64,000 nt of DNA from an uncultured bacterium (GTDB lineage Bacteria; Cyanobacteriota; Vampirovibrionia; Gastranaerophilales; Gastranaerophilaceae), in assembly GCA_902797985.1 (NCBI GenBank), contig CADBUZ010000008.1:1-64000 (forward strand), in the 5' to 3' direction. Of this stretch, positions 33,953 through 36,881 are shown in pieces; within the stretch, counting starts at the first letter, position 1, and every line of letters starts with the position of its first letter. Both the position numbers and the translations under genes were made by a program. Below the pieces are notes generated by a model. The model had not been told where the DNA came from, did not search any database, and saw nothing but the letters and a program-made list of their open reading frames with translations.

Positions 33953-34657
33953 TTATTTTACCCCTAAATAAAATTTTCTCTCAACCTCAGGTAAACGTTC
34001 TATTGCATAACGGAGCATTACCCTAGGCATTTTATTTGCATATTTATCTAAAAAACTGTATAGTTCTTTAATGTCTTGTTTCCCAAGTTCTCTAAGCATC
34101 CATCCAACTGCTTTATGGATTAAATGATGTGGATGATTAAGATATTTTTCTGATAGTTTAATGGTTGGTTCATAAAATCGTTTTTTTATTAAATATTGGG
34201 TAGAAACTATTGCAATTCTTTGTTTCCAGATATGGTTTTTGTTTGATAAATCATATAATATATCTAATTTGTCACGATTGGTGTATACATAATCTCCTAC
34301 TATATTTGGAGCTGATACATCTACTAAGTCCCAATTATTTATGTAATCAGCATTATTCAGATATATTTTGACATAATTTTCTTTTTTGTATTTTTCTGTT
34401 TTATACTTGTGTATTAAAATCATTAAAGCAAGCATTCTAACTTCGTGATAATCATCGTGGAGTAATACTTCTAAATCATTTGTTGATATATTATAATATT
34501 TTTTTGCAATTTTTCTTAAAATAGGAGTTCTGACTCCGTATAATTTATCATTTTCTCCATATCCGCCTTCGGTTACTTGTAAGATTGGAGCAACCCATTT
34601 TGCATAATCTTTCTCTGAATTTGATATGATTTCTTTTATTATTTCTTCAGTTATCAT
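33953..34657 (-). CDS. AlkD-like DNA alkylation repair glycosylase
   Basis: This HEAT-repeat DNA glycosylase family removes alkylated bases. The 234 residues show YGVRTPILRKIAKKY, HEVRMLALMILIHKY, the conserved catalytic-site segment NNWDLVDVSAPNIVG, and KAVGWMLRELGK. The length is as for AlkD. Its start overlaps the end of the LdpA-like gene by 4 bases, so the two are translationally coupled. Confidence 0.92.
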   Translation of the reverse strand: MITEEIIKEIISNSEKDYAKWVAPILQVTEGGYGENDKLYGVRTPILRKIAKKYYNISTNDLEVLLHDDYHEVRMLALMILIHKYKTEKYKKENYVKIYLNNADYINNWDLVDVSAPNIVGDYVYTNRDKLDILYDLSNKNHIWKQRIAIVSTQYLIKKRFYEPTIKLSEKYLNHPHHLIHKAVGWMLRELGKQDIKELYSFLDKYANKMPRVMLRYAIERLPEVERKFYLGVK

Positions 34658-35601
34658 TTTGTACTCATTTCTACTAAATTTTTTGCAATTTTTAATCCTT
34701 CATTAAAAATTGATTCGTTATAAAAATTTTCATTTTTTATATATTGTTTTACTATTTTTCTTGCATAAGAACCTATCGCTATTCCGTTGTAATCAATATT
34801 ACAAAGCTTTGCAAGATCAGATGTTTTAGAGTTTGTCCCTCCTGAGATAAGTGTGTAACATGGCAGACCTTCATCTTGTATAATTTCAGCCATAGCTACA
34901 GCCTGCAAAGTTGTTTTGTAATCATTTTTACTTCCACTCATTGGAATACCGTCTGCTTGAATAATTGTTGTATAGGGTTTCCTATTTTTAATCATTTTTT
35001 TTAATCGTAGAAGAACTTGTTTGTTCCCAAGATTTAATCTGTCTATGCATATTGATAAAATACCATCAAAGGTTTGATTTATAATTTCCCATTTATCCCA
35101 GATATCTTCATCTAATTCAGAAGTTGCGTGTAATTCAATACAATCAATGCCTTTTTCTATTAATATTGGAAGAATTTTGTTTAAATCTTGTTCTGTTTCA
35201 ATCATATTTATTGCATTATTTTGACATCCTTTTTTGCAGATTCCGCAGCCTATGCAATTTTCAGTGATAATAGAATTGTTTTTAATTGCATCATTAGGGC
35301 AAACTTCTTCACATATTCCGCAAAAGTTATATTTTTCGTTGTCAATTTTTGCTTTAAATATGTGTGGATCACCTTTCATTCCGACGCTTACGCAAATATA
35401 TCTGTCTTTGTTTATGCGGGCTTTTTCCAGCCCTCTTTTAGCTGCATCAAGAATTTCAGGTTTTGCACATATATCAAATATTTGTGCTCCGGCCTTTGAA
35501 TATAGTGCAGTTAATCTTTCTACATCCTGTTCGCATTCATTTCCTGCACCACATACAAGTTTAAATACTTTGTTATTCTTATCTAAAAATTCTTTTAGCA
35601 T
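34654..35601 (-). CDS. ldpA: LdpA-like iron-sulfur protein
   Basis: In cyanobacteria LdpA is a redox-active Fe-S protein that adjusts the circadian period to light and redox state. This protein of 315 residues has the same order of parts: an N-terminal FKLVCGAGNE segment with a barrel-like domain, a double 4Fe-4S segment (CGICEEVCPNDAI then CIGCGICKKGCQNNAI), and a C-terminal domain with IQADGIPMSG, ISGGTNSKT and AIGSYARKIV, which I recognise as the LdpA C-terminal domain. The start at 35601 is chosen for its AGGGG ribosome-binding site. No kai genes are seen here, so the role is presumably a general redox or metabolic one. Confidence 0.78.
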   Translation of the reverse strand: MLKEFLDKNNKVFKLVCGAGNECEQDVERLTALYSKAGAQIFDICAKPEILDAAKRGLEKARINKDRYICVSVGMKGDPHIFKAKIDNEKYNFCGICEEVCPNDAIKNNSIITENCIGCGICKKGCQNNAINMIETEQDLNKILPILIEKGIDCIELHATSELDEDIWDKWEIINQTFDGILSICIDRLNLGNKQVLLRLKKMIKNRKPYTTIIQADGIPMSGSKNDYKTTLQAVAMAEIIQDEGLPCYTLISGGTNSKTSDLAKLCNIDYNGIAIGSYARKIVKQYIKNENFYNESIFNEGLKIAKNLVEMSTK

Positions 35602-35660: not shown

Positions 35661-36881
35661 ATGAATAGAGTGAAAAAGATAGTTTTTATAATATTTTGCA
35701 CAGCTTTTCTCTCAATAAATTGTCTTGCATCTGAAGGGAAAGTTCTTGATACAATTGTGCTGGAGAAAACTGAACCTCCTTTCGAAACGGAAGTTATAGA
35801 AGAAGATTATCTTGAAGATAATATAGAAGAAGAACCTGCGCCTAAAATAATACGAACTGATAAAACATTAAAAGAAAAAATTAATGATGTTTTTAATCTT
35901 CAAGTTTCTGATAATGAACACATTGAATATCTTTTAGACAGTATCCTTACTAAAAAATTCGATAAAGGTCCGTTTGATAACGTAGGAATATGGGGACTTT
36001 GGCGAGGTGGAATGACTGAAACCTTTGTAAAGTCAAACAATCATACAAATGTTAATTATGATGTATTGGAAACGCGTCTGCATGGAACTTTTAAAAATAA
36101 AAAAACTTCCTTTGTTATAACAACAAGGTACGTTCCGCAAAAAGAGTTTAAGTTTATGCAGAATTTGTTTTCTGACGTATTTATAAGACATAGATTTAAT
36201 AAACATGCTGTTCTCACTATTGGTAATACCAGAACTCATACAGGGGAAGAAGGTAGCTGGAGTGAACTTTTAATACCGTTTTATCAAAGGTCACAAATAA
36301 GCAGACAATTTGGGAATATAAGAAAAGTTGGTGTTCGTTTATCCGGTGAATTTAAGTATATGGACTATGATATAGCCGGAAATTCGTCAGGTACTTATTT
36401 TACATCGTTTTTCCCCGGCGCAGAATTTTGCGGATGGTTAAACTTTAAACCGCTTGCAAACACAAATGGAAAATATGGTGATTTAAAGATTGGCGGTGGA
36501 ATAACTGCCGGCAGGCGACATTTTAATTACAATAATATTGGGGTTTATGTAGGTTATAAATATAAGAGGTTTAAGGCTGATTTTGAATTTGCAAACGGAG
36601 ATGGTTATAACGGAAGAATGGGACCTGCAAATATCCACGCAAGAGGATATTACACTACTCTTTATTATGATTTAACAAAAAAATTACAATTAGTTGCGCG
36701 ATTTGATGAATTTACTCCTAATTGTAATAATTCCGCTCACAGAACCCGTGAATATTCAACAGGGTTAAATTATTTCATAAAAGGACAAGCACTAAAAGTA
36801 ATGTTAAATTACGTGTTTAGAGAAGATTCTTCTCTCGGAAACTCTCATAGGATAATAATTGGAACGCAAGTTGTGTTATAA
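35661..36881 (+). CDS. Outer-membrane beta-barrel (porin-like) protein
   Basis: A signal peptide (about 1-23, ending CLAS) is followed by an acidic disordered stretch (about 40-65). From about 105 to the end come alternating aromatic/hydrophobic strands typical of a barrel, for example NVGIWGLWRGGM, KTSFVITTRYVP, GVYVGYKYKRFKADFEF and LQLVARFDEF. It resembles phosphate-selective porin (OprO/P)-like proteins in style, but the family is not certain. Its existence indicates an outer membrane. It overlaps the convergent recO gene by 6 bases. Confidence 0.75.
   Translation: MNRVKKIVFIIFCTAFLSINCLASEGKVLDTIVLEKTEPPFETEVIEEDYLEDNIEEEPAPKIIRTDKTLKEKINDVFNLQVSDNEHIEYLLDSILTKKFDKGPFDNVGIWGLWRGGMTETFVKSNNHTNVNYDVLETRLHGTFKNKKTSFVITTRYVPQKEFKFMQNLFSDVFIRHRFNKHAVLTIGNTRTHTGEEGSWSELLIPFYQRSQISRQFGNIRKVGVRLSGEFKYMDYDIAGNSSGTYFTSFFPGAEFCGWLNFKPLANTNGKYGDLKIGGGITAGRRHFNYNNIGVYVGYKYKRFKADFEFANGDGYNGRMGPANIHARGYYTTLYYDLTKKLQLVARFDEFTPNCNNSAHRTREYSTGLNYFIKGQALKVMLNYVFREDSSLGNSHRIIIGTQVVL

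Follow-up and report, generated by a model that had tools for sequence, protein, structure and literature searches.

By its sequence, the protein described here is a full-length member of the LdpA family and an orthologue of the cyanobacterial LdpA proteins; the bacterium that encodes it is a gut-type relative of the cyanobacteria that does not photosynthesize and probably has no clock. We propose, with a probability of roughly 0.6, that LdpA is an ancestral TIM-barrel redox enzyme carrying an iron-sulfur insert, a paralogue of DUF561/Ycf23, which was later recruited as a clock input. LdpA has so far been treated as a clock-input protein of photosynthetic cyanobacteria and is known only for clock tuning. 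The gene lies in the window, by which we mean the whole 64,000-nucleotide stretch that was analyzed. The genome that contains the window measures 1.86 Mb (97.7% complete), and the named genomes closest to it are assemblies of Candidatus Gastranaerophilales, many of which come from animal guts. The features are as follows.

33953 to 34657, minus strand: AlkD-like DNA alkylation repair gene (PF08713, E 8.8e-56), lineage-specific and not judged part of the system
34654 to 35601, minus strand: ldpA-family gene, 315 amino acids from its ATG (LdpA Pfam and NCBIfam matches; profile A1 over full length)
34774 to 35142, minus strand: predicted C-terminal part of the barrel, strands 4 to 8 (residues 154 to 276), with E156, H158, Q215, D217 and the glycine-rich loops that follow strands 7 and 8 (AlphaFold, invariance, LdpA_C match)
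35197 to 35358, minus strand: ferredoxin-like Fe-S insert (residues 82 to 135), predicted between strands 3 and 4 (Pfam, AlphaFold, hhalign gap against DUF561)
35224 to 35256, minus strand: second cysteine group, C116xxC119xxC122xxxC126, invariant in 27 of 27 diverse LdpAs
35299 to 35322, minus strand: first cysteine group, C94xxC97xxxC101, conserved in all 52 close sequences
35329 to 35331, minus strand: codon TAT for Y91, a cysteine position in the family (alignment of close and diverse LdpAs)
35383 to 35568, minus strand: predicted N-terminal part of the barrel, strands 1 to 3 (residues 12 to 73), with K14, D43 and S72 (AlphaFold, invariance)
35661 to 36881, plus strand: divergent Porin_O_P-like gene upstream (PF07396, E 4.4e-11), not part of the system

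The open reading frame runs from 35601 to 34654 on the minus strand, and an alternative GTG start is possible nine codons upstream of the ATG. The motifs from which the initial annotation recognized an LdpA-like protein are all in the translation: FKLVCGAGNE (residues 13 to 22), both cysteine groups, IQADGIPMSG (214 to 223), ISGGTNSKT and AIGSYARKIV. The identification itself is borne out by the two LdpA Pfam domains, which occur in order and above their curated cut-offs (PF25160, LdpA_Fe-S-bd, 31.3 bits against 27.6; PF12617, LdpA_C, residues 147 to 292, 66.2 bits against 22.2, E 3.7e-18). Also, the NCBIfam model NF045992 (CircClkLdpA) matches residues 9 to 291 at E 4.5e-38, with the N-terminal, Fe-S and C-terminal parts collinear, and profile A1, made from diverse LdpAs, matches over the full length at 363.8 bits. 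An unrelated ferredoxin family might have matched better; the best one after NF045992 reaches 9.8e-9, which is far weaker.

An AlphaFold model of the window protein, based on 52 sequences (mean pLDDT 90.7, pTM 0.86), places eight barrel strands at residues 12-16, 41-45, 68-73, 154-158, 181-186, 212-217, 249-253 and 273-276; the Fe-S module sits between the third and fourth. These predictions indicate that LdpA is a single (beta/alpha)8 TIM barrel into which a ferredoxin-like module is inserted and, because the eight predicted strands flank the Fe-S module, that the Pfam "C-terminal domain" is just the second part of the split barrel. The best solved folds in a Foldseek search were TIM barrels, tryptophan synthase alpha first and thiamin phosphate synthase and ribulose-5-phosphate epimerase among them, with TM-scores that are moderate (0.4 to 0.6) because the insert breaks the alignment. 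Among the matches listed for an LdpA profile against PDB sequences, the ferredoxin module alone was covered and the barrel part was not. A Pfam search of LdpA gave no significant match to phosphate-binding TIM-barrel enzyme families and, to our knowledge, the known catalytic residues of those enzymes are not common to LdpA.

Conservation is concentrated in the predicted strands. Twenty-seven diverse LdpAs share without exception K14, G18, D43, S72, D78, H80, C97, C101, C116, G118, C119, C122, C126, E156, H158, Q215, D217, G218, G223, G254, G255, G273 and G277. With glycines and cysteines set aside, nine invariant residues remain, and seven of them fall in barrel strands, which make up 13% of the sequence (hypergeometric p 1.4e-5). 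Those on strands occupy alternating positions, as expected of inward-facing side chains.

The iron-sulfur module of the window protein has a peculiarity of its own. An extra family cysteine lies three residues before the first motif in 26 of 27 diverse LdpAs and in 51 of 52 close sequences; the window protein alone has tyrosine there (Y91), so that it holds seven of the eight cysteines typical of the family, and cluster I is without one expected ligand. This private change may be a real mutation or an assembly or strain variant.

Further insight into the barrel comes from its kinship with DUF561, also known as Ycf23 (PF04481). In a Pfam search, 10 of the 27 diverse LdpAs matched DUF561, down to 3e-5, and it was the sole barrel family to recur to such an extent. 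Direct comparison of the two profiles by hhalign gave a probability of 98.7% (E 1.8e-16), with a gap falling on the Fe-S insert; removal of the insert raised this to 99.1% (E 1.1e-18), and an unrelated HMGL-type TIM barrel, used as a negative control against insert-free LdpA, gave 0.6% (E 0.1). The aligned invariants are K17, D46, S68, E87, Q153 and E155 in DUF561 and K14, D43, S72, E156, Q215 and D217, respectively, in LdpA. In a joint tree the two families lie on opposite sides of one branch (100/100), each as a clade of its own and LdpA not inside DUF561. LdpA is thus best described as a paralogue of DUF561/Ycf23, a homology shown by profile comparison and shared invariants. As a separate observation, no DUF561 match was found in G004, G033, G039, G052, G079 and G081, six members of the family to which the window belongs; all of them have LdpA, and they have DUF561-positive relatives.

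We know of no substrate, cofactor or activity for LdpA or DUF561. Its sequence and predicted structure suggest that LdpA most likely works as an enzyme, and the following scheme would accommodate these features. An ancestral barrel enzyme would have been duplicated, after which the Ycf23 copy stayed plain and the LdpA copy took in a ferredoxin module. The loops that follow strands 7 and 8, putative phosphate-binding loops by motif resemblance, might hold a phosphorylated small molecule, on which K14, D43, S72, E156, H158, Q215 and D217, possibly with D78 and H80, would act at the barrel mouth. The Fe-S insert would pass electrons to or from this ligand, or sense redox state. In photosynthetic cyanobacteria, the clock would later have come to read the redox state of the module, as seen in the effect of LdpA on CikA and on period. 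We hold, tentatively and at a little under even odds, that LdpA and Ycf23/DUF561 are paralogous enzymes of a phylum-specific metabolic step older than the class split, that LdpA gained its ferredoxin module within the barrel, and that the clock later tapped it as a metabolic or redox input.

The conserved barrel could instead be a non-catalytic ligand sensor. LdpA might always have been a redox sensor whose TIM barrel has decayed, binding a metabolite and signaling redox state through its clusters to partners that differ among lineages. The sole experimental role of LdpA is indeed redox sensing that affects CikA (PMC13421787), and the way in which it exerts this control is listed as an open question in a 2026 review (PMC13421787). 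CikA would be the partner in photosynthetic cyanobacteria; others elsewhere might be, for example, RpaA, RpaB or NblS, homologues of which are reported in Melainabacteria, without SasA (PMC3787301, PMC4040986). We consider this reading unlikely, for K, D, S, E, H, Q and D are strictly kept in the barrel strands of sequences that have otherwise diverged widely, and six such positions are also invariant in DUF561, which itself has no Fe-S cluster, as expected of an active site. Moreover, the cluster I ligands are more variable than the polar residues of the barrel.

LdpA is nearly universal in its phylum. PF12617 was found in 286 of 291 sampled phylum genomes and in 147 of 194 genomes of the window's class, as well as in Synechococcus elongatus alone among 14 control organisms; the 13 named non-cyanobacterial controls had no match, nor did plasmids or phages. 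Every carrier found lies within Cyanobacteriota in the GTDB sense, with coverage beyond the phylum consisting of those 13 controls, plasmids and phages, and a study of 11,264 genomes has called LdpA exclusive to Cyanobacteria (PMC5520375). The claim in the initial annotation that LdpA occurs outside photosynthetic cyanobacteria is therefore right as regards a non-photosynthetic lineage; "outside cyanobacteria" would depend on the taxonomy adopted.

A wider profile built from the 27 diverse LdpAs proved more sensitive than the Pfam model. Losses apparent by Pfam in G281, G148, G348, G021, G031 and G061 were false, for in these genomes the wider profile recovers genes of full or nearly full length. 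It found no LdpA in G131, G322, G035 or family f8 (G007, G013), where f and a number denote family labels in the genome sample. The first three are near-complete genomes without a full-length LdpA, and are possible natural losses; G322 belongs to a photosynthetic-type family and comprises 5.8 Mb in two contigs. In the joint tree, the LdpAs of photosynthetic genomes group as one clade (100/98), and the deeper-branching non-photosynthetic ones as another (96/87); those of the window's class do not form one clade, and its families fall in three groups, some weakly joined. These groups make deep presence clear and fall short of demonstrating strict vertical descent. One genome labelled as another class, G216, has an LdpA (L107) nested among those of the window's family and a DUF561 (L219) that groups with other deep lineages; with 750 contigs, it is probably a chimeric assembly.

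Within the window's class, LdpA is dissociated from KaiB and KaiC. The initial annotation had suggested a check for kai genes, and searches of the window genome found neither KaiB nor KaiC, its matches to the KaiC-type ATPase domain being RadA, RecA and DnaB. KaiB was likewise not found in any sampled f1 genome. It occurs in 15 of the 194 class genomes (14 from family f3 and one from f7), and KaiC (E<=1e-40) in 14, all f3, of which 8 pass the curated cut-off. No f3 genome of the sample has LdpA by Pfam, and 14 of them rechecked with the wider profile gave none. Family f1 thus has LdpA without KaiB/KaiC, and f3 has KaiB/KaiC without LdpA. Elsewhere in the phylum, 13 of 15 deeper-branching non-photosynthetic LdpA carriers have no KaiC match and two have relatives below the cut-off; KaiC was found at about 800 bits in 11 of 11 photosynthetic genomes tested.

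The KaiC-like genes under the curated cut-off, in deeper-branching LdpA carriers, are on contigs C17 and C167 of G202 and on C232 and C465 of G220. Adjacent kaiB-kaiC pairs occur in f3 genomes, which are large (3 to 9 Mb) and may be of the Obscuribacterales type, at G088:C186:1757-3527 (L229), G120:C250 (L071, L230), G054:C33 (L073, L231) and G086:C4 (L072, L232), and these pairs possibly constitute a Kai system without LdpA.

These distributions bear on the age of LdpA. That it predates the clock, as had been suggested from its presence here, does not follow from presence alone, given that one family within this class does have KaiB and KaiC; a LdpA older than the Kai clock is plausible and compatible with the data, and it is unproven because Kai genes could have been lost. 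On such a history, the phylum ancestor would have possessed LdpA along with a Kai-type clock; Gastranaerophilales would then have lost Kai and retained LdpA for a secondary use, and f3 would have kept KaiBC and lost LdpA. The kaiB and kaiC genes of f3 and the KaiC-like genes of the two deeper-branching genomes fit this account, which is nonetheless unlikely, as it requires that almost every non-photosynthetic carrier of LdpA lost Kai (all of f1 and 13 of the 15 deeper genomes), and that LdpA nearly always outlasted the clock. Such retention itself implies another function.

The recruitment of an older enzyme by the clock, our preferred reading, also draws on this pattern. Its near phylum-wide occurrence, clockless gut bacteria included, and its enzyme-barrel look together suggest that timekeeping was probably not the original job of LdpA; for a protein found in a non-photosynthetic genome without KaiB/KaiC, a role other than timekeeping, such as the redox or metabolic one proposed by the initial annotation, is the most natural reading. 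The window's lineage is reported to have neither quinones nor a linked electron transport chain (PMC3787301), and the persistence of LdpA in such fermenters speaks against plastoquinone sensing as the original role and for its being a later use. A weak UbiA-family match (60 bits) in the window genome tempers this argument as regards quinones.

In the window, the start of the AlkD-like gene overlaps the ldpA stop (ATGA), so the coupling of the two genes noted earlier is real here; it does not hold generally. Among 80 close loci of Gastranaerophilales type, collected with a seven-sequence LdpA alignment, 79 have a downstream gene, and AlkD follows ldpA in 6 of these, all nearest relatives. AlkD is a recent, local neighbor, and the coupling was rejected as a functional clue. 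Neighbors vary among these loci, with a beta-lactamase-like enzyme upstream in 38 and an HAD phosphatase (21) or an HMGL-like gene (11) downstream. In 14 of 20 deep loci, both photosynthetic and non-photosynthetic, ldpA is directly followed on its own strand by a gene for a SpoIIIAA-like AAA ATPase, an arrangement that supports the orthology of photosynthetic and non-photosynthetic LdpA. Photosynthetic ldpA thus adjoins this ATPase gene and not kai genes, and the contrast drawn earlier between AlkD and clock-gene neighbors was misplaced. None of the Gastranaerophilales loci examined showed this arrangement, and a search of the window genome, run without a positive control, did not find the ATPase gene. 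Separately, ldpA of families f5 and f7 is closely preceded by a same-strand gene for an Orn/Lys/Arg decarboxylase-like protein (L081, L086, L077, L080); in L077, L081 and L086 the two genes are direct neighbors whose coding ends overlap.

The window protein scores 131 bits against the 450-bit equivalog cut-off of NF045992, and other non-photosynthetic LdpAs score 149 to 191. This cut-off is no clean border, because two photosynthetic LdpAs, from f36 and f42, fall below it too (318 and 405 bits). That the low score betrays an unrelated ferredoxin-containing protein merely resembling LdpA is extremely improbable, since the match is full-length with both barrel parts, the Pfam cut-offs are passed, the photosynthetic proteins miss the same mark, and the downstream ATPase is conserved across photosynthetic and non-photosynthetic lineages. 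An unrelated-ferredoxin identity is in practice refuted, as no other family scores near LdpA.

If LdpA is an ancestral enzyme that fermenters without a clock have retained, then the clock would read metabolic flux or cofactor state. Our literature searches found no publication treating LdpA together with Melainabacteria or stating its occurrence there, and it is not mentioned in the passages found in Di Rienzi et al. (PMC3787301) and in Soo et al. (PMC4040986). Searches for DUF561 by its Pfam name, for LdpA with Ycf23 and for LdpA with TIM barrel likewise returned no publication, and none was found that states the kinship of LdpA and Ycf23. This kinship offers a handle on Ycf23, candidate residues for mutation of the LdpA barrel are now named, and two nearly phylum-wide paralogues make a good target for understanding what sets the phylum apart.

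LdpA can be compared with four known systems. Its counterpart in photosynthetic cyanobacteria (PF12617, PF25160 and NF045992; Synechococcus elongatus) is homologous over the full length at 24 to 31% identity, with the same order of parts, invariant residues, cysteine groups and C-terminal motifs, and has an ATPase neighbor that is conserved also in related lineages. The window protein differs in its sequence divergence, its genome without KaiB/KaiC, its other immediate neighbors and its missing cluster ligand. Bacterial-type 2[4Fe-4S] ferredoxins (Fer4) share with the insert the pattern CxxCxxCxxxC...CxxCxxCxxxC; unlike them, the LdpA insert is a mere module in a barrel, about 54 of 315 residues. 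The predicted fold is that of thiamin phosphate synthase, tryptophan synthase alpha and ribulose-5-phosphate epimerase, and LdpA has in common with such phosphate-binding TIM barrels the glycine-rich loops that follow strands 7 and 8, although these enzymes carry no Fe-S insert; DUF561 matches TMP-TENI at 1.7e-7. Finally, DUF561/Ycf23 differs from LdpA in having no Fe-S insert and in forming a separate sister clade, yet it resembles LdpA in its eight-strand barrel, its six corresponding invariant polar positions and its near phylum-wide occurrence (110 of 116 genomes), with one copy in the window genome too.
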